Assembly: GCA_026129685.1 (NCBI GenBank)
Contig: JAHCHO010000006.1
Coordinates: 124,001 to 188,000, forward strand
Direction of reading: 5' to 3'
DNA from: Fimbriimonadaceae bacterium
GTDB lineage: Bacteria; Armatimonadota; Fimbriimonadia; Fimbriimonadales; Fimbriimonadaceae
Length of the DNA stretch: 64,000 nucleotides
Part shown: positions 48,873 through 64,000 of the stretch, piece after piece
Layout: every line of letters starts with the position of its first letter
Numbering within the stretch: position 1 is the stretch's first letter
Program-made: the position numbers and the translations under genes
Notes under the pieces: model-generated
Seen by the model: the letters and a program-made list of their open reading frames with translations, nothing else
What the model was told of the DNA's origin: nothing
Database searches by the model: none

Positions 48873-49601
48873 ATGGTCGGAATCGTGCCGGCCGCGGGGC
48901 TGGGTAAACGAATGGTCGAGGTCACGGGCGGCGCACCCAAAGAGTTGCTGCCCGTCGGCGACCGACCGGTGCTCGCTTGGGTCCTCGACGAAGCGTTTCG
49001 GGCGGGTTGCCACCGCGTCGTCGTGGTCTCTTCACCTAAAAAGCCGGACCTGGACCGGTACCTCACCTCGCTCAACGACCGGCGCGTTTCGGTGGCCCAC
49101 CAAACCTCGTGCCGTGGATTGGCGCACGCCGTTGCCTGCGCCGGCGTCCAAGGCGAGCCGTCGGTCGTCCTGATGGCGGACGTCTTCATGGTGCCGGGCA
49201 CGTCCCTCGGCCACCTCGTCAGGGCGCTCTTGAAGGGCGCCTGGGCGGGCGCCCTCGTTCGCCCCGTGCCCGAGGCGGACGTGCGACGGTACGGGATCGT
49301 CGAACGCACTCCCGCCGGATCGGTCTCTCGCCTCCTGGAAAAGCCGAATCCCGAGGAGACCGAAAGCCGCTGGGCGGTTTCCGGCCGGTACGGGATCGGG
49401 GCCGAGGCGATGGACGCCGTCCACCGAGCCTGCCTCGACCTCGCCGACGATGGGCCCGAGTTGTACCTCGCACCCATTCTCTCGGCCGGAATCGCGGCCG
49501 GAAGGCCCTTCGCCGCGGTGGAATTGGGCCAAGACCTGCTCTTCGACTGCGGGTCGCCCGAGGGTTACCGGTCGGCGGTCTCCGCCCTCGACGGCGCTTA
49601 G
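48873..49601 (+). CDS. Sugar-1-phosphate nucleotidyltransferase-like protein
   Basis: A 242-residue GT-A-fold nucleotidyltransferase. The nucleotide-binding loop is VGIVPAAGLGKRMVEVTGG, followed by PKELLPVGDRPVLAWVLDEA and the metal-binding VVLMADVFMVPG. RYGIVERTPAGSVSRLLEKP and LLFDCGSPEGYRSAVSAL match UTP-glucose-1-phosphate uridylyltransferase/RmlA-type enzymes. It would activate a sugar phosphate with NTP. It starts one base after the second isomerase gene with GGAGGG upstream, so it belongs to the same operon. Its stop overlaps that of convergent selB by three to four bases. Confidence 0.86.
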   Translation: MVGIVPAAGLGKRMVEVTGGAPKELLPVGDRPVLAWVLDEAFRAGCHRVVVVSSPKKPDLDRYLTSLNDRRVSVAHQTSCRGLAHAVACAGVQGEPSVVLMADVFMVPGTSLGHLVRALLKGAWAGALVRPVPEADVRRYGIVERTPAGSVSRLLEKPNPEETESRWAVSGRYGIGAEAMDAVHRACLDLADDGPELYLAPILSAGIAAGRPFAAVELGQDLLFDCGSPEGYRSAVSALDGA

Positions 49602-51439
49602 GCGATCACCCGGTTGTCCCCCAGCCGTTGGGTGAACCCGATCGAGTCGAAGTACTCCAGCAAGGGGATCGCGTATTTCCGGCTCGAGCCCACCGCGTCG
49701 CGAAAGTCCGCCGCGGTGAACGGCCTCCCCGCCGCCATCTCCCGCAACCGAACCTTGAGCGCCTCGAGACCCGCCGGAGTGTAATAGACGCCCTCTTCGA
49801 TCCGCAACACCTCGTTGGCCTCGATTCCGATCCGTAGGATCTCCTCCACCGCTTGCGGGGGGACCCCCGCCCGCTTCGCGAGTTCGGGCGGCGGCGGGAC
49901 GTTCACTCCCGCCTCGTCGAGCAATTCGGTCACGCGCGTGAGCAACTCGCGTTGGCGAGCGTTCAGCCTCAGTCGGAACTCGGGGTGACGAAGGCCTGTC
50001 CCTTGCGCGTACACGCGCCCCTCGGCGACCAGTCGCGCCACGATCCGGTCAAGAGGCTTGCCCGCCCACATCAGGCCGGCGGCGAGCACCGCTCGCTCGC
50101 GGGGAACGTAGGCTTTGGTCGGGTTCAGGTCGTGGAGCGGTCGAAGCGCATTGAGGAGCCGCGCCGCGCACCGGTCGTACGCCTCCGGCGTCAGCCATAA
50201 CCCGGCGAAGCCGACCAAGCGGCCCTCCCCCAGAAGAGACTCGAACACCGGGCCGAGCGTCTGCGGGGTCTTGCCCAGCAACCGGCAGACCTCGGCCGTC
50301 TCGACGCCGATCTTCATTCCCTCGACGATGGTGAGAACCCCGTAGGCATCGCCTTGCTCGTCCTTCGGTTGAACCAGGACCTCCGTCCGCCGCCGCTTGG
50401 TCGCCACGGGCACGACCACCCGGCCGCCGCCCAGCAGGTCCGGAGGGCTGTACCGACGCACCACCAGCGGTTGGTCGAGGGCGCAAGCGACGCTCGACTC
50501 CAGGCGAAGCTGGACCAGATCGGGCTCGGCGTCCGCCAGAAACACCTTGCCGATCGCCTCCGCCGCTCCGAGCGAAACCCGCACCCGCTGGCCGTGTTTC
50601 GGCTCCCGTCGCCAACGCACGCGGGCGTCGAACATCGTCGTTTCAAAGAGGGCCCCCGGTTCGCCGACCGCCATTCCCCGATAAACGTTCTCCAACTTCA
50701 CCCCGCCCAGGTTCACCGCCACGCGCCGGCCGTACTCGGCTTCGGAAACCGGCTCGTCGTGGCACTGCAGACCACGGACCCGTGTCTCGGTATGACCGGG
50801 CTCGAGGATGGCCGCCTCGCCCACCCGCATCGTGCCCCGCGCCAACGTTCCGGTGACCACCGTTCCGTGTCCTTTCACCGCGAAAGCGCGATCGATCGGC
50901 AAATACCAAGGCCCGGAACGCACCGCTTCCGGGCCCGACAGAGCCTCGGCGAGAACGTCCCGGAGACGTTCGATCCCTTCGCCCGTCGTCGCCGACACCT
51001 CGACGACCGGAACCGTGCCAAAGCGGCTCGACCCGACCAGTTCTTCGACGTCTTGCCGCACCAGACCGCGCAGTTCGCCGTCGGCAAGGTCGCTGCGCGT
51101 CAACGCGACCACGAGCCTCTCCACGGGCAACACCTCCAAAATCTCAAGGTGCTCGAGCGTCTGGGGCATTGCCCCTTCGTCGGCGGCGACGCACAGGAGT
51201 CCCACGTCGATTCCGAGCGCGCCGACGAGCATGTTCGTCACGAACCGCTCGTGCCCGGGCACGTCCACGATCGAAACGCGGCCGTACCCCGGCAGATCGA
51301 GGTAGGCGAACCCGATATCGATCGTCAACCCCCGTTGCTTCTCTTCGGGCAAGCGGTCGGCGTCGATTCCCGTGAGCGCCTTGAGTAGGGTCGTCTTGCC
51401 GTGATCGACGTGTCCGGCGGTACCGATCAGGCGTGCCAT
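49598..51439 (-). CDS. selB: Selenocysteine-specific translation elongation factor SelB
   Basis: A 613-residue EF-Tu-like GTPase that brings selenocysteyl-tRNA(Sec) to UGA codons marked by a SECIS hairpin. G1 is [19 protein letters not shown], switch I has [20 protein letters not shown]3 is [13 protein letters not shown], and the G4 position reads ALTRSDLAD. Domains II and III follow ([19 protein letters not shown]). The C-terminal half is the SelB-specific array of winged helices that binds SECIS ([40 protein letters not shown]). This C-terminal part excludes EF-Tu or IF2. No selA, selD or tRNA-Sec gene was found in the window. Confidence 0.93.
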
Positions 51440-56322: not shown

Positions 56323-57360
56323 ATGCGCCAACTGTTCTCGCACGCCGATTTCGACCAACTCGCCGACCTCTGGAATCGGGTCTGCCCCCCGAAGTACGGG
56401 ACGGACGCCTCCCTGCTTCGCGACAACACCGTCGAGTCGCCGCTCTTCGACTGGGGAGCGTCCTTTATCGAGACGGAGGGCGAGCGGCCGACCGGCTTCG
56501 TGACCGTCAAGAGGTCCGCCAACCCTTCGCTCTTTCGTGGGCCGGACCCCGACGGTGCGCACATTAACGCGATCGTCTTCGAACGCCCCGAAGTCGGCGT
56601 CGACCTCCTCGCCGCCGCCAAGCGCGTCCTCCGCGAGCGCGGCGTTTACCGATTGGCCTTCGGCCAGGACTCGCGCCACTTCTTCCCCGGTTGCCCGATG
56701 GACTGCCACAACCTGCGCGACTTCCTCATTATCGAGGGCTTCGACGAGGGTCACGAGGAAGTGGACCTGGAGCGCGACCTGCGCGACTACGTTCCGCCCG
56801 CCGGTTCGCTCGACCCGCTCGGCGGCTTTGAGGCGGTCGCCGAGGCGTTCGGCACCGTCCGCCCGATCGGCGAGCGAGGCAATCCCGCCCCGATGGCCTG
56901 TATCGTTCACGACGCCGATGTCCCGTTGCTCGAGGAGTTCCTGGAGCGGGAGTTCCCCGGTCGGTGGCGGCACGACGTGATCGACAAGGTCCACCGCGAG
57001 GGCTCCTCGGCCGGCATCGTCGGTCTTTTCGAACACGGCCACTGCCAGGGTTTCGCCCTGACCCAGACCTGGACCGACCGACATCCCATCGGCGGCGCAG
57101 TATGGCGAAAAGACCTTGGCGAGCACTGGGGCAGCCTCGGCCCGATCGGGGTCTCGAAGGGCGTGCGCGGGCGAGGGCTCGGGAACGCCCTCCTCGGCGC
57201 CGGCCTCGTCAGTCTCAAGCAACGGGGCGCCCGTCGCACCATTATCGACTGGACCACGCTCGTCGATTTCTACGGCGGCCACGGGTTCGCCGTCAACCGG
57301 CGCTACAAGACCTTCGCCCTGCGGCTGGACCGCGAGTCGCCCGGGCCTTCCGGGTCTTGA
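56323..57360 (+). CDS. GNAT-family N-acetyltransferase (two-domain)
   Basis: A 345-residue protein with two GNAT-like halves. The N-terminal half (RQLFSHADFDQLADLWNRV, INAIVFERPEVGVDLLAAA) appears degenerate. The C-terminal half has the acetyl-CoA site: LGPIGVSKGVRGRGLGNALL, with R-G-R-G-L-G as the pyrophosphate-binding loop, then LVSLKQRGARRTIIDWTT and FYGGHGFAVNRRYKTF. It should acetylate an amine of unknown nature. ATG 56323 is chosen because the GNAT fold begins directly after it. Its TGA stop lies within the -35 box of the next operon. Confidence 0.82.
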   Translation: MRQLFSHADFDQLADLWNRVCPPKYGTDASLLRDNTVESPLFDWGASFIETEGERPTGFVTVKRSANPSLFRGPDPDGAHINAIVFERPEVGVDLLAAAKRVLRERGVYRLAFGQDSRHFFPGCPMDCHNLRDFLIIEGFDEGHEEVDLERDLRDYVPPAGSLDPLGGFEAVAEAFGTVRPIGERGNPAPMACIVHDADVPLLEEFLEREFPGRWRHDVIDKVHREGSSAGIVGLFEHGHCQGFALTQTWTDRHPIGGAVWRKDLGEHWGSLGPIGVSKGVRGRGLGNALLGAGLVSLKQRGARRTIIDWTTLVDFYGGHGFAVNRRYKTFALRLDRESPGPSGS

Positions 57361-57386
57361 CAAAGTAGACGCCCGTCTGCTATACT
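57357..57386 (+). promoter_or_regulatory. Sigma-70-type promoter of the HerA/NurA-like operon
   Basis: TTGACA (57357-57362) and TATACT (57381-57386) are separated by 18 bases. The -10 box ends nine bases before GTG 57396, so transcription should start near 57393 and leave almost no leader. The -35 box overlaps the stop codon of the upstream acetyltransferase gene. Confidence 0.7.
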
Positions 57387-57395
57387 CGACGCGAC

Positions 57396-58370
57396 GTGGC
57401 GTTCTGGAAAGGACTGAAAGAGAGTCGGCCGGGCCTGAAGGTCCTGCGCCAAGGTTCGTTCAAAGAGGACGACCTGCCCCGGTTCTCGTCCGACCCCAAC
57501 GCGGAAGACCCCCCGATGGTGGGCGACGAGACCCCCGAGGGCAAACCCGTTCCGCCGGCCCTCGAGAGCGGCTTCACCCACTTCATGGACGGGGCGCAGA
57601 AGGTCCGTGCGATCGCCGAGTACGAAGGCGCGACGATCTACCTGGCCCACCTTTCGGCGGCGCTGGCGAAGCGCGAGGAGCGCACGATGCTCACGCCCTC
57701 CCCCGATTGGTACCGCGGTGGCCTCTTCCTGTTCGTTCCCAGCGTGATCGAGGACCGGCACGAGTTCGGGCGACCGGGCACATGGGTCTCGGAGTCGGTG
57801 GTCGTCCGGGACGAGGATGCCGCGCGTGGCTTCGAAAGGGTGCGCGAGGTGACCGTCAAGGCGATCGACGAGCACCGCAACGGACTCGAGACCCAGTTGC
57901 TTCAACTCTTTCGCGACGGAGCGCTGTTGACCGACGGGACCCTCGTGAACGCAAAGCCGAGGAGCGGGGACTACCCCTTCGTCGTCGGCATCGTGAAGAG
58001 CCACTCCCACCAATACTTCAACTCCCACGAACGCCGAAGGGCGATCCTCGGCCTCCGAACCGGCGAGCGGAGCGGCGTGTTCGAGGTCGCTCGCGGCAAG
58101 GATCGGGACACGGTCTACAGCTTCTACCTTCGCCTCGTCGAAGCGGACGACCGGCCGGCGCTCTTTGGCATGATCCGCGTCGAGATCCCTCCCGAACGCA
58201 AGTACCTGGATAGGGTGGACGAGATCGCGAGTTGGATTCTCGCCGAACGGGCGCCGACGAGCCGGCCCGACCCTCGCCACGACAAGCTCCTCTATCCCAT
58301 TCATTGGATCGAGGAGTACCTTCGCTCGCGACAACCGACCGACGCGGGCATGTCCCTTTACACCGCCTGA
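57396..58370 (+). CDS. NurA-like nuclease domain protein
   Basis: A 324-residue protein resembling NurA, the manganese-dependent 5'-3' nuclease that works with the HerA ATPase in DNA end resection. The candidate metal aspartates are D65 in THFMDGAQKVRAIAEYEG and D180 in GALLTDGTLVNAK. K201 follows in VVGIVKSHSHQY, and the end has KLLYPIHWIEEYLRS, like the closing YP motif of NurA. The first 55 residues are a charged extension. The assignment rests on these spaced motifs and on the HerA-like gene 18 bases downstream. The GTG start has no ribosome site and follows a promoter almost directly, implying leaderless translation. Confidence 0.65.
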   Translation: MAFWKGLKESRPGLKVLRQGSFKEDDLPRFSSDPNAEDPPMVGDETPEGKPVPPALESGFTHFMDGAQKVRAIAEYEGATIYLAHLSAALAKREERTMLTPSPDWYRGGLFLFVPSVIEDRHEFGRPGTWVSESVVVRDEDAARGFERVREVTVKAIDEHRNGLETQLLQLFRDGALLTDGTLVNAKPRSGDYPFVVGIVKSHSHQYFNSHERRRAILGLRTGERSGVFEVARGKDRDTVYSFYLRLVEADDRPALFGMIRVEIPPERKYLDRVDEIASWILAERAPTSRPDPRHDKLLYPIHWIEEYLRSRQPTDAGMSLYTA

Positions 58371-58388
58371 CTTACCGCGCACATCACC

Positions 58389-60326
58389 ATGAGAGAAATC
58401 GGACGCGTCATCGGAACGGAGCGCAAGCCCAGCACCGCTTACACCTTTCAGTTCTGGGCGAGACCCGAGGAGAACCTCGGCATCGGCTCCATTGTCAAGG
58501 TCGCGGCGACGGTGGGCGACCACGACGTCACCGTCTACGGCGTCGTCGTCGAGGCGCAAGGGTTCAACGACCTCGAGAGCCCCCTCCACGAGTACCTCTC
58601 CGTCGGCGGAGACGCCGGCGCCGAACCCCCGACCCTCCGCCACGAGATTCGCGTCTTCCAGGCCGCCGTCCTGCGCCGCGAACCGGAGGAACCTGTCGGT
58701 GCCGTCCCCCTCGGCCGGGTCTACGCCGCCGAGGACGACGACGTCCGCATCGCCCTCCGCACGGAGAAGTACGCCGAGGAGTACGGGATTGTCTGCGGCG
58801 TCTACGGCCCAAAGGACGCCCAGGTGCCCGTCCATCTGCACCGCGACTTCCTCCTCGGCCCGGAATCCGGACACCTCAACATGACCGGCACGAGCGGACT
58901 TGCCGCCAAGACCAGTTACATCTTGTTCCTGCTCAAGGCCATCTTCGAGCACTACGAAAGCGGTAAGCCCGGCGACCAAAACGGGGTCGCCGCCCTCTTG
59001 TTCAATACGAAGGGTGGCGATCTCCTCTACATCGACCGTGAGCCGAAGGAGACGCTTCCCAAGGAGCACCTCGAGCTGTACGAGCGGTGCGGCATCGACC
59101 CGACCCCCTTCAAAAAGGTGGTCTACTTTGCGCCTTACGACGCCCGTAACTGGACGACCCTCGACTCGATCCGCCAGCACCCGGAACTGGAAAAGGACAA
59201 CCCAACCTGGCCTTTCGCCTTCGGACTCGAGAACATCATCGACCATTTTGAGGTGCTCGTCGGCCGTGACGACTTGGACGCCAAAGCGTCCGGTTACATC
59301 ACCTACCTGCGCGACGAGTACGTTCAAGGAAAGGGGCGCGCGATCGAGCCGGGTGGTCCCGTCGAAACCGCCAAGACGCTCGGAGAACTGACCACGATCA
59401 TCCGAAAGGAACTCCAGCGGGCGGACGAGTCCTCGGGGACCGGGAAGTTCGGCGTGCACCATCCACTCACGATGCGCAAGGTGCTGAACCGCTTGCAGAA
59501 CCTGGAGCACCGTTACTCCGGCCTCATCTCCCGCGACGGCGTAACCGAGGGTCCGCTGGTGAAGCCTCTCGAGCCCGGCACCATCTACGTGGTGGACGTC
59601 AACGAACTCGACAGCGACGCCAAAGACCTCGTGTTCGCCTCCTTCGTCAGCCAGCTCAAGGACAAGATGGAGCAACGCCAGCTCGGCGTGGACCGACTGA
59701 TCGTGATGGTGGACGAAATGAACAAGTACGCCCCCACCGGCGGCGGCGACAGCCACGTCTCGCGCGCTCTGCGCGAAATTTCCGCCCGTGGACGCTACAT
59801 GGGCCTGACTCTCTTCGGCGCTCAGCAGTTCCGTAGCCGCGTGGACAAGGAGATCGTCGGCAACGCGGCGACCCATGCCTTCGGGCACATCGAGGCCGAA
59901 GAGCTCGCCCAGCCGGGGTACAGCTACTTCACCCCCGCCGTCAAGGAGAAGCTCGCGACCCTGCCCACCGGCGACGTGCTCATCAAGCACCCCCACTTCG
60001 CCCAGCCCATCTTCGTGCGATTCCCCCTGCCGCCCTGCATGAAGGGGTCCGACGGCATGCGCGACTTCCCCGCCCAACGGGGCGTCTCGGCCAAGGAGGC
60101 GCTCACGAAGCAGGCCCTCGCGATGGGGGGCAACGCCAACCGGGTCGCCGACGCGATCGAGAGCCTCGGCGAGGGCGAGACCGACCTCATGCGCCTCCTC
60201 ACCGAGTTGCGCCGTGCCGCGCCCGGAGCCGACCCGATCGCGATTCTCGGGACCGGGAAGAAGAAGGCCTTTCGCGCCGAGCCGCGCCCGACGATCGAAG
60301 AGTCCGACCCGTTCGAAAAAGAGTGA
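58389..60326 (+). CDS. HerA-like hexameric ATPase/helicase
   Basis: A 645-residue ATPase of the HerA/FtsK group. An N-terminal beta-barrel (HAS-barrel-like) starts REIGRVIGTERKPSTAYTFQ. The P-loop region reads NMTGTSGLAAKTSYILFLL: G167 to K174-T175, with alanine where the glycine before the lysine is expected. Walker B is LIVMVDEMNKYAP with D442 and E443, followed by RALREISARGRYMGLTLFGA and QQFRSRVDKEIVGNA. The sequence GDVLIKHPHFAQPIFVRFPL near the C terminus also fits HerA. It should form a ring that moves along double-stranded DNA with the NurA-like protein. ATG 58389 lies 18 bases after the upstream stop. Confidence 0.77.
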   Translation: MREIGRVIGTERKPSTAYTFQFWARPEENLGIGSIVKVAATVGDHDVTVYGVVVEAQGFNDLESPLHEYLSVGGDAGAEPPTLRHEIRVFQAAVLRREPEEPVGAVPLGRVYAAEDDDVRIALRTEKYAEEYGIVCGVYGPKDAQVPVHLHRDFLLGPESGHLNMTGTSGLAAKTSYILFLLKAIFEHYESGKPGDQNGVAALLFNTKGGDLLYIDREPKETLPKEHLELYERCGIDPTPFKKVVYFAPYDARNWTTLDSIRQHPELEKDNPTWPFAFGLENIIDHFEVLVGRDDLDAKASGYITYLRDEYVQGKGRAIEPGGPVETAKTLGELTTIIRKELQRADESSGTGKFGVHHPLTMRKVLNRLQNLEHRYSGLISRDGVTEGPLVKPLEPGTIYVVDVNELDSDAKDLVFASFVSQLKDKMEQRQLGVDRLIVMVDEMNKYAPTGGGDSHVSRALREISARGRYMGLTLFGAQQFRSRVDKEIVGNAATHAFGHIEAEELAQPGYSYFTPAVKEKLATLPTGDVLIKHPHFAQPIFVRFPLPPCMKGSDGMRDFPAQRGVSAKEALTKQALAMGGNANRVADAIESLGEGETDLMRLLTELRRAAPGADPIAILGTGKKKAFRAEPRPTIEESDPFEKE

Positions 60327-60329
60327 GGC

Positions 60330-63101
60330 CTAGCCCCGACCCGGGTCGATCTTGGCCGCGACGGCTTTGACCATTGGGTCCGGATCGCTTCGAAGAGCCA
60401 GCAGGTCCGTGCGAAACTCCGCCGGGCATCGGCCGTTCAACGCCTGCATGGCCTGGACCTTGACCCCCGGGCGAACGTCTTTCAGATACTTCGCCGCCGC
60501 TCGCAGGCAGTCCGCATCGCCGAGGCGACCGAGCAGTTCGAGGCCGACCCTCACCGATCGCTCGTCCGCGACCCGCGTGTACCGATCCGCCGTCTGCTTC
60601 GCCAAAGCCGGCGACTGCGCGACCAGTTCGAGCGCCGCCTTACGGATCGGAAGCTCGGGGCTCAGGAGCAACGCCTCGCCGGTCGAGTAGGCGGCCGGAT
60701 CGGCGATCTCCGAGAGTGAGATCACCGCGTTCTGCGCCGTCAGCCGGTCCGGTTGTCCCGCCAGCAGCATGAGTTCTTGCACCACCGACGAAACCGTGGC
60801 GGGCGGAACCTGGGCCTTCCCTTCGCCGCCGATCACCGCCCCCGCCGCTCGTGCCGCCGCCCGACGGTGAACCGGATTGCGCAGCGCCGCGCTCAGGTAC
60901 GGGGCCGCCGCCGAGACCTTCGAGGTGACCACGAGCGACAGCGCGTTCCGTGCCTCCCCCACGTTCGGGCTCGCGATCTTGGGGGCGAGCGCCTTGCGCG
61001 CGTCCTCCCCCAGCGCCGAAACCATCGCCGTGAAAGCCCGCAACTGGAGTCGGTCCGCCGTGCCGAGCTTTCGATCCAGCATCCACTCGAAGGCCGGCAT
61101 CCCGATCCCGATCAGACGGTCGGTGTTGGCCTGCACGTCCTTCTGCGCCGTCCCCACCCCCCACTGGGTCGCCAGCGCGTACACACGCTCCAGTTCTCCG
61201 TCCGTTGGACGGGCCAGGCTCCCCGGATGGGGCTGCACCCGGTTCACCGGTTCCGTCGCCCCGACGGGACCGGGCTGGGTGGTCGCCGCGTCGTAGGCCA
61301 CCCCCCACACCCCGCCGAGCGCGGCTTGCCCGTCCCCGACCCCGCCTCGATACAGGTCGGGGCCGTTCAGGTCGACGAAGACCCCCAACGAACCGCTCGA
61401 CCTCGATGGATTGCCGAAGCCGGCGGGTCCGTTGTATCGGTCCTCGCCCTCCGCATCGATGAAGATCCCCAGTCCGTTGGCGTTGCCCAAGCCCGGGCGG
61501 GAGTCACGGGCCGAGTAGAGGTCCGAGCCCGCTCGGTCGAGCAGAAAGGCCACCCCATAGTCGTGGCCGATCGCGTGGGCCGCGCCGAACTTGGTCGAAT
61601 ACGCGTCGTCCCCCGCCAGGTCGAAGAGGTACGCCCCCGTCATGTGCATCGCGCTCGCCTGGGCGTAGTGGTAGGCCGAGTACGTGTCGTGCCCGGCTTG
61701 GTCGTAGAGCGTGCCCAGCGAAAACCAGTAGGACGCCGCCTGGCAGTACGTCTCGCCTAGGTAGGCGTCGTCGCCCTCCCCGTCCGTCACGAGACCGATG
61801 CCTCCGCTCACCCCGCCCGTGTCCTCGCGATAGCCGCTTCCGAACCCCTGCGCGAACGAGTAGTGAACGTCGGCGAAAAGAGGCGAGTTGAGGATCAGGC
61901 CCCCCGCGCGATAGACGTCCGCGCCCTTCGTGTCTACCAGCCACCCGACGCCCTGGGTCCGTGCCGCCCCCTGGGCGTAGAGTTCGGCGTCGTAGCGGTC
62001 GCTTCCGCCCGCATCCACCAATAGGCCGATCCCAAACTGGCCGAAGCCCTGGCACAACGTGTCCGAAACGCGGTCGTCCTGTCCGGACTCGTCCACGAAG
62101 AGCCCCACCCCCGCGAGGCCCGCGCCCATGGCGAGCGATCGGGTCCGGTAGGTGTCGTTCCCGCCGCCGTCATAGGCGATGCCCACCCCGACCAGACCCG
62201 CGCCCAGATTGAGGTCCCCAACTTCGTACACGTCGTTCCCGTCGAGATCGATGAGCACCGAGCAGTAGCCGACGCCCGCCCCGTGTCGGCCCACGTACCG
62301 GTCGTCTCCACCCAGGTCGAGCGTCAGCATCGCGTTCGTGTCGGTGTGCAGTTCGGCGTCCTTCCCCCCCACCACGATCGGGATGCCGTCCACCACGAAG
62401 CGAGTCGCCCTGATCTCGGAGAACTGGTTGGTCATCCGCCGGAGATCCGTGACGCAAGCCTCCACGACCGACGCGAGCGAGGCCGCCGCGCCCGCAATCC
62501 GGGCCAAGTCCACCTTCGCCACCAGCCCGAACACCCGCGCTCGGTCCTTGCTCGCGTTCTTCACGAACGAAAACGTGACGCCCGCCTCCTCGACCGCCAG
62601 GCCGGGAAGGCTGTCGATCAAGAGTCTTCGCTCTTCCGGCGTCAGCGTCGCCGTCGCCCGCTTCACCTCCTCGTTCCCCGCCTTGATGGCGGCGACCAAG
62701 CGCGCCACGACCGGCCTAACGGGCCCCAAGTTCGCGGGAACCGCGTTGAGCATCGTGGATGACGCCTCCGGATAGACCCCCGGCGACCCGGTGCCTCCGA
62801 GGAGAGTGCGCGCGGTCGCCAGAATCCGGGAAGGCCGCTGGCTCAGCGCCTCGCGATGAAGCGCCATCAAGCGATCCGCCGCGTCGAGCGGCTTGTCGAG
62901 CGACAGATTTACCAGATCGAGGCGCCCCGGATCGGCGAAGGGCTTCCGCTCGAACTCAAGGTCCTTGAGCGTCATGTTCCCCACGAATAACGCCCGCTCG
63001 ACCCCGCGCCGCTCCGCTTCGCTCAACTGGGCGGACCCCAGGGGAACGAGGGCCACGAGCGCGACCAAACCGACGATCCTCAATCGAGTTGCCATAAGCA
63101 T
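60330..63101 (-). CDS. Secreted beta-repeat protein with C-terminal HEAT-like region
   Basis: A 923-residue exported protein of unknown function. The signal peptide is within the first 25 residues (RIVGLVALVALVPLGSAQ). After a helical N-terminal region, about residues 255-590 contain a tandem repeat of the form LxDxxGxDxYxxxxxAxGxGxxGxG (LDLGGDDRYVGRHGAGVGY, LIDLDGNDVYEVGDLNLGAG, LFVDESGQDDRVSDTLCQGF). This suggests a calcium- or carbohydrate-binding beta solenoid. The C-terminal 300 residues are HEAT-like helices (AKYLKDVRPGVKVQAMQAL). The start region offers ATG 63101 and 63095; both overlap the end of the upstream phosphoglycerate mutase-like gene. Its stop is three bases from that of the HerA-like gene. 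Confidence 0.7.
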   Translation of the reverse strand: MLMATRLRIVGLVALVALVPLGSAQLSEAERRGVERALFVGNMTLKDLEFERKPFADPGRLDLVNLSLDKPLDAADRLMALHREALSQRPSRILATARTLLGGTGSPGVYPEASSTMLNAVPANLGPVRPVVARLVAAIKAGNEEVKRATATLTPEERRLLIDSLPGLAVEEAGVTFSFVKNASKDRARVFGLVAKVDLARIAGAAASLASVVEACVTDLRRMTNQFSEIRATRFVVDGIPIVVGGKDAELHTDTNAMLTLDLGGDDRYVGRHGAGVGYCSVLIDLDGNDVYEVGDLNLGAGLVGVGIAYDGGGNDTYRTRSLAMGAGLAGVGLFVDESGQDDRVSDTLCQGFGQFGIGLLVDAGGSDRYDAELYAQGAARTQGVGWLVDTKGADVYRAGGLILNSPLFADVHYSFAQGFGSGYREDTGGVSGGIGLVTDGEGDDAYLGETYCQAASYWFSLGTLYDQAGHDTYSAYHYAQASAMHMTGAYLFDLAGDDAYSTKFGAAHAIGHDYGVAFLLDRAGSDLYSARDSRPGLGNANGLGIFIDAEGEDRYNGPAGFGNPSRSSGSLGVFVDLNGPDLYRGGVGDGQAALGGVWGVAYDAATTQPGPVGATEPVNRVQPHPGSLARPTDGELERVYALATQWGVGTAQKDVQANTDRLIGIGMPAFEWMLDRKLGTADRLQLRAFTAMVSALGEDARKALAPKIASPNVGEARNALSLVVTSKVSAAAPYLSAALRNPVHRRAAARAAGAVIGGEGKAQVPPATVSSVVQELMLLAGQPDRLTAQNAVISLSEIADPAAYSTGEALLLSPELPIRKAALELVAQSPALAKQTADRYTRVADERSVRVGLELLGRLGDADCLRAAAKYLKDVRPGVKVQAMQALNGRCPAEFRTDLLALRSDPDPMVKAVAAKIDPGRG
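61335..62320 (-). repeat. Tandem Gly/Asp/Tyr coding repeats of a beta-solenoid type
   Basis: This part of the secreted protein gene encodes roughly ten imperfect repeats sharing G-x-D-x-Y at a turn and G-x-G-[LVI] strands, for example LIDLDGNDVYEVGDLNLGAG, LLVDAGGSDRYDAELYAQGA, LVTDGEGDDAYLGETYCQAA and LLDRAGSDLYSARDSRPG. Period is about 22-45 residues. At DNA level the copies are diverged. Confidence 0.75.
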
Positions 63102-64000
63102 CCAGCTTCCACCGTATCCGAAACGGTGCGACGAGCCACGCGCCGATCCTCGAGGCCACGCTCGTCGAACGGAATCGCGTTGCGCTCGCGGCCTGGGCTT
63201 TCGTACCACAATGCCAGCCCGTCGTGCCCCGCCTCTTGGTTCGCAGGGGCCACGACTAACAGACGGATCGGCTCGGCCAAAGAACGCTCGAAGATGGGCG
63301 CCAGCCACTCACGATCCCATTCCTGCACCCACCGCTCCAACTCGTCCCGTTTCGATTCCGCCCGAAGCGCCGCCGGCATCTCGTCCACGACGAAAGTCAG
63401 GGACCGCTCGAGGCACCCCTGGGCGGACGACCTCAACGTCGCCGACAGCCCGCGCCCCGAGGTCAACGGCACCGGCCGGTAGCCTACGAGCCGCGACAGG
63501 CCCCGCGTTCGTAAGGACCTGGATTCCACCCAAGCCGGCTCTCCCCGTTCGATCGCCAGATTCGGCAACCGTCCGCGAACCCCCTGGCCCCACGGCCACA
63601 ACACGTTCAGCGGCGGCAACCCCTCTTCGCGGCGACGCCGGTTGAACTCGAGTTCGTCCAGCAGGTTGACCGAGTCGTCGATGAAGCGTCGCAACAGCGT
63701 CGCCCCGTCCCCTTCCGGAAAACGTCCCTCGATCCGGCCGCCCGCCAACGCGTCCGGGCGGGTCGTCGCCAATTCGAGCGAACCGTCCTCCCAGACCAGT
63801 CCGTGGTCCAAGCCGCTTCCCGCCACGAACGTGAGCGTCCGCGTGTTCAACCGTCCTGCCGCCGCGACGATCGCCGTCCGCTCCGCCTCGCTCGGCGACC
63901 CGGCGGGTCTCGCGGCGCACCCGTCGTGCAGCGAGAGCACCGACGCGTGGAAATGCACCGAACGATCCGGCGGGTCCGCCCCCATCGCGGCCACGACCAA
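63080..64000 (-). CDS. ApgM-type cofactor-independent phosphoglycerate mutase, C-terminal part (cut by window edge)
   Basis: The frame is open at the window edge and ends at TGA 63082-63080, giving about 306 residues of the C-terminal part. The pattern matches archaeal-type 2,3-bisphosphoglycerate-independent phosphoglycerate mutases of the alkaline-phosphatase superfamily: FTVAG-like sensor region (LTFVAGSGLDHGLVW), GGRIEGRFPEGDGATLLR, the segment VNLLDELEFNRRRREEGLPP and the diagnostic NVLWPWGQGVRG. It would interconvert 2- and 3-phosphoglycerate in glycolysis. A closing segment with WLAPIFERSLAEPIRLLVVA, EAGHDGLALWYESP and VSDTVEAGCLWQLD differs from the usual ApgM end. Active-site N-terminal residues lie outside the window. 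Confidence 0.65.
   Translation of the reverse strand: MVVAAMGADPPDRSVHFHASVLSLHDGCAARPAGSPSEAERTAIVAAAGRLNTRTLTFVAGSGLDHGLVWEDGSLELATTRPDALAGGRIEGRFPEGDGATLLRRFIDDSVNLLDELEFNRRRREEGLPPLNVLWPWGQGVRGRLPNLAIERGEPAWVESRSLRTRGLSRLVGYRPVPLTSGRGLSATLRSSAQGCLERSLTFVVDEMPAALRAESKRDELERWVQEWDREWLAPIFERSLAEPIRLLVVAPANQEAGHDGLALWYESPGRERNAIPFDERGLEDRRVARRTVSDTVEAGCLWQLD

Follow-up and report, generated by a model that had tools for sequence, protein, structure and literature searches.

A gene pair on a Fimbriimonadaceae contig, coding for a NurA-like nuclease and a HerA-like ATPase whose P-loop departs from GxxxxGK[ST], raises the question of what such a pair does in a bacterium: whether it processes the ends of the cell's own DNA, destroys foreign DNA, or works without an ATP-driven pump. 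In the window, by which we mean the whole 64-kb stretch of DNA analysed, the two proteins very probably form a bacterial NurA-HerA complex of the Deinococcus radiodurans type, and the pair belongs to a known type of system, not a new one. This reading is supported by PF09376 matches of NurA homologues, the fold of NurA, the match of HerA to D. radiodurans HerA (drHerA), the catalytic residues, the co-occurrence of the two genes, the linkage to mre11-rad50, and a tree that follows taxonomy.

Locus layout and transcription start

The pair is laid out as follows:
57357 to 57386, + strand: sigma-70-type promoter TTGACA-18-TATACT, consensus score 11/12
57396 to 58370, + strand: nurA, predicted RNase H-like nuclease of 324 aa with a GTG start (PF09376 in homologues, 1zup, AF2 fold)
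58389 to 60326, + strand: herA, predicted hexameric DNA translocase ATPase of 645 aa (drHerA profile match, Z 37.1, AF2 model)

The promoter, the NurA-like gene, the gap of 18 nt and the HerA-like gene had all been named in a preliminary description made from the sequence, and all were recovered in place. The promoter is the sole site with 11/12 matches in 7 kb (0.5 expected) and overlaps the stop codon of the upstream GNAT acetyltransferase gene, which ends at 57360; nurA–herA thus has its own promoter. As the GTG start at 57396 lies 9 nt past the -10 element, the transcript is probably leaderless. Across 380 kb of the contig, 16/136 genes have a TANNNT that ends 5-9 nt ahead of their first start codon, against ~1.1 expected, a statistic that comes from one contig only and from a crude gene finder which overlooked nurA itself. 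The excess indicates that leaderless starts are common, and leaderless transcription is plausibly a general habit in this Fimbriimonadaceae genome, so that the leaderless start proposed earlier is plausible but ordinary.

The acetyltransferase had been suggested to join the module, which would make it the third member of the operon. Its gene ends beside the promoter, and 37 loci of Gemmatimonadota have a GNAT gene after rad50. However, the promoter comes after the GNAT gene, the sequence available ahead of nurA has no homologue in the sister genome (G002) or other relatives, and of the Gemmatimonadota GNATs just one (L092) shows detectable similarity to that of the window, at a level (2e-6) that indicates a common superfamily and nothing closer. 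Membership is therefore very improbable, and for the window's lineage we reject this unconserved gene as a partner. In Gemmatimonadota, where the GNAT gene lies 3' of rad50 (e.g. L061, L062 and L088), an acetyltransferase may be part of the repair operon.

Among the other genes of the window, SelB, the selenocysteine-specific elongation factor (49601-51439, - strand), suggests that the genome uses selenocysteine. A 992-aa protein with C-terminal HEAT repeats and many repeated GGDDxY-like stretches is encoded at 60330-63308 (- strand).

Folds and active sites of NurA and HerA

Two regions of nurA carry the residues discussed here:
57588 to 57590, + strand: D65 of motif FxDG, invariant and aligned with the catalytic D53 of D. 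radiodurans NurA (drNurA)
57933 to 58004, + strand: D180-G to the KSH motif (K201, H203), invariant in 20 homologues

The preliminary description had proposed a profile search and a structure prediction as checks on NurA, and the structure prediction bears it out. The PF09376 profile did not match the window NurA sequence alone; it matched 14/20 aligned NurA homologues (best 1.1e-9). The AF2 model (pLDDT 84.9) superimposes on drNurA (7f6d_G) with Z 20.1 over 273 residues and on Sulfolobus NurA with Z 13.8, unrelated RNase H-like structures (Argonautes) starting at about Z 10. Thermotoga maritima NurA (TM1739, PDB 1zup), a structure deposited with little characterisation (PMC9960219), was reached both by the NurA-family profile (E 1.5e-5) and by fold (Z 19.9). 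In contrast, drNurA was reached by fold and not directly by sequence, the window NurA having diverged past direct detection. D65, E165, D180, K201, H203, Y300 and P301 are all invariant in the 20 homologues, and among them are the aspartates, the lysine and the closing YP singled out earlier. The equivalence of D65 and D53 was obtained via an intermediate homologue (L056) aligned to 7f6d NurA, taking chain residue 73 as D53 on the assumption of a 20-residue tag (inferred from 369 vs 349 aa); the drNurA variant D53A has no nuclease activity (PMC9960219). The predicted structure of the window NurA thus has the RNase H-like NurA fold and the conserved acidic active site.

In herA, three regions matter for assembly and ATP hydrolysis:
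58410 to 58583, + strand: HAS-barrel, HerA residues 8-65 (PF09378 E 0.0063, under its curated cut-off)
58887 to 58916, + strand: Walker A GTSGLAAKTS, K174/T175 corresponding to drHerA K175/T176 (GxSGxAxKTS conservation, drHerA alignment)
59709 to 59723, + strand: Walker B VDEMN, D442/E443 corresponding to drHerA D487/E488 (both invariant; drHerA alignment)

The assignment to the HerA family, which had also been put forward for checking, is firm: the HerA profile matches drHerA (7f6d/7wrw/7wrx) with E 3.6e-112 over 548 profile positions, the next solved HerA following at 1.1e-7, and residues 2-560 of the AF2 model (pLDDT 84.6) align with 7wrw/7wrx at Z 37.1. In D. radiodurans, the HAS-barrel is the part of HerA that holds NurA (PMC9960219).

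The preliminary description was literally correct that the P-loop lacks the glycine before its lysine (the loop also exceeds GxxxxGK[ST] by one residue), but calling it unusual does not hold. GxSGxAxKTS is invariant in 23 HerA homologues and occurs in 77/77 named loci, those that carry the relevant part of HerA, and the loop of drHerA reads GISGVATKTS. Further, K174, T175, D442, E443, K208 and D211 are invariant in the 23 homologues and align with drHerA K175, T176, D487, E488, K217 and D220, which are reported as catalytic residues (PMC9960219); Walker B is intact, as described before. A degenerate ATPase, with a pair that works without ATP-driven pumping, would fit the deviation from GxxxxGK[ST] taken by itself. 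However, the loop is invariant across several phyla and shared with drHerA, in which K175 contacts the ADP beta-phosphate, T176 coordinates Mg, and mutation of K175 impairs ATPase and resection (PMC9960219). Since the loop is a family invariant and its lysine is needed for activity in drHerA, we reject an inactive ATPase as extremely improbable; judged by its sequence, GTSGLAAKTS is the normal loop of a bacterial HerA and no lesion.

The window pair thus resembles D. radiodurans NurA-HerA (PDB 7f6d, 7wrw, 7wrx; PMC9960219) in the gene pair, the folds, a P-loop of the GxSGxATKTS kind, Walker B, the ASCE residues and the nuclease motif FxDG. It differs in the diverged NurA sequence, in an extra C-terminal extension of HerA of ~90 residues with an acidic DPF tip, and in the DNA-binding R495 of drHerA, which is not conserved (T450 in the window). 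By analogy with the published homologue, six HerA subunits would form a ring that pumps double-stranded DNA, driven by ATP, into a NurA dimer on its HAS-barrel face, and NurA would cut the 5' strand, leaving a 3' tail for recombination.

Gene neighbourhood, descent and the question of defence

The two genes had been expected to be found together, and this is what the phylum Armatimonadota shows: of 291 genomes, 58 have both NurA and HerA, 10 HerA only, 6 NurA only and 217 neither (Fisher p 2e-43, a statistic that ignores phylogeny). NurA lies at most 3 kb upstream of HerA on the same strand in 40 of the 58 genomes having both, and directly upstream in 59/74 named loci (80 loci in the set). Mre11 or Rad50 neighbours, suggested earlier as a further check, are frequent in relatives, where by Pfam a Mre11/SbcD gene lies downstream of HerA in 57 and Rad50/SbcC in 50 of the 80 named loci. 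The operon order nurA–herA–mre11–rad50 is found in Gemmatimonadota and some Armatimonadota; in the latter phylum, L083, L066 and L136 carry the mre11–rad50 part, preceded by nurA–herA in L083 and L066. One genome (G012) has the order herA–mre11–rad50–nurA, the same as a Streptomyces plasmid locus. In the window's genome, mre11–rad50 lies on a separate contig (G000:C12:85380-89073) and is not adjacent to nurA–herA. Across 61 relatives, HerA and Mre11 are both present in 21, with HerA only in 2, Mre11 only in 9 and neither in 29.

The archaeal HerA-NurA-Mre11-Rad50 sets of Sulfolobus, Pyrococcus and Thermococcus have the same components, and mre11 and rad50 also adjoin the genes for relatives of the window pair. 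On the other hand, sequence similarity to the archaeal proteins is low and mre11-rad50 is unlinked in the window's genome. Archaeal HerA is expected to have a canonical P-loop. The separately encoded Mre11-Rad50 (SbcCD) probably cooperates with NurA-HerA in the window's organism.

Most genomes of the window's own family are without the pair, which is thus dispensable there. A replacement of AddAB by NurA–HerA is not supported, given that PF12705 (the PD-(D/E)XK nuclease domain of AddB type) was found in 61/61 relatives, a coarse count that takes in any PD-(D/E)XK protein of the AddB kind.

Two side observations concern related loci. A Gemmatimonadetes MAG has a single 1230-aa frame (L115:9722-13411) with Mre11 (Metallophos) and Rad50 (AAA_23/SbcC Walker B) domains, which may reflect a fusion of Mre11 with Rad50 or an artefact of sequencing. 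A second, diverged HerA-NurA pair occurs in some genomes of the order (L026 in G049, L027 in G045, and G055:C118), which carry it in addition to the pair orthologous to that of the window.

In the HerA tree, the nearest neighbours of the window copy come from its genus, followed by its family and next by the sister family, and the Armatimonadota come together with moderate support (88/78). This agreement with taxonomy points to vertical descent with repeated loss and not to a recently mobile defence gene. Anti-phage defence, with HerA feeding foreign DNA to NurA, has to be weighed because other bacterial HerA-nuclease pairs serve in defence (PDB 8wfd TdpAB, 8xaw, 8j4u). TdpAB, HerA-DUF4297 and HerA-Sir2 share with the window pair a HerA-type ring and an effector, and TdpB even has a NurA-like fold (Z 13.1); however, their setting is defence, Sir2 and DUF4297 are other enzymes, and their HerA proteins are clearly more distant (TdpA Z 21.8 and the Sir2/DUF4297 partners 17-27, against 37.1 for drHerA). 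The pair is patchily distributed within the window's family, and PADLOC mad8 gives a weak, partial match to HerA (1.6e-8).

The Streptomyces plasmid locus (L223, NZ_CP134205.1 414754-428379), with herA-sbcD-sbcC-nurA, stands next to TIGR02680/TIGR02678/DUF2397 genes and shows that defence systems can have such related sets in their vicinity. We take these neighbours to be Wadjet type III-like. Against this, no recognised defence gene adjoins the pair in the 64-kb window, viral contigs were without relatives and phage records had two distant ones only, and the linkage to mre11-rad50 recurs in several phyla.

The tree speaks for a repair module that was inherited vertically and at times lost, rather than for mobile defence, and we regard defence as unlikely. 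The earlier characterisation as a resection or defence module therefore stands for resection, defence being less likely than repair given the closeness to drHerA and the tree, and the "distinct subfamily" comes down to a clade of the bacterial NurA-HerA family and nothing beyond that. Family membership, fold, conserved catalytic residues, operon structure, NurA/HerA/Mre11 co-occurrence and mre11-rad50 linkage in relatives were observed here; a role in repair of the organism's own DNA is one that we only infer. In D. radiodurans, resistance to UV and mitomycin C rose ~10-fold when nurA-herA was knocked out (PMC9960219), so that even the nearest pair studied so far has a disputed role in the cell.

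The C-terminal tip of HerA and the SSB tail

The extension of HerA ends in a short acidic motif:
60297 to 60323, + strand: C-terminal tip EESDPFEKE after a disordered linker ([DE]P[FY] conservation, SSB-tail likeness)

The linker has a pLDDT below 50. [DE]P[FY] occurs in the last 12 aa of 82/103 HerAs against 1.1 by shuffling, many of these sequences being related, and a tip of this kind is present in just two of the 248 coding-like ORFs in 380 kb of the contig, HerA being one of them. The SSB of the same genome (L156, G000:C14) ends in DEYDPFADE, and DPF stands in both the HerA and SSB tails of 14/14 Armatimonadota genomes in which both tails were read. In Actinomycetota the HerA tip again follows the SSB of its lineage, with PP[FY] in both proteins: HerA ends in DDDIPPF (Nonomuraea) and DEPPY (Streptomyces) and SSB in DEPPF, a comparison of two organisms with the Streptomyces SSB taken from another strain. 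The fit is loose in 15 Gemmatimonadota, where SSB ends in LPF (DLPF) and HerA mostly in DPY; the match between the tails is thus not general.

We tentatively suggest that the HerA tip might imitate the C-terminal tip of SSB, in which case the ring could dock on readers of the SSB tail such as RecJ, RecO, PriA and others. In D. radiodurans, the C-terminal domain of RecJ binds both SSB-Ct (PMC4846377) and HerA (PMC4663267), which suggests a shared docking site. However, RecJ of the window's genome (581 aa) has DHH, DHHA1 and OB domains only, and the lack of the extra Deinococcus-type domain weakens the RecJ C-terminal domain as the reader of this tip. PDB searches for the drHerA tip with guessed tails as queries gave alignments that reached no further than residue 610/618.

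If the suggestion is true, the tip would let the ring pass the resected strand on to repair directed by SSB, and an SSB-like tail offers a simple, testable idea for how NurA–HerA might be recruited. More broadly, the results add Armatimonadota and Gemmatimonadota to the range of the bacterial NurA–HerA family. In these phyla the pair can share an operon with Mre11 and Rad50, its archaeal partners, which is relevant to the dispute over what NurA–HerA does in bacteria.
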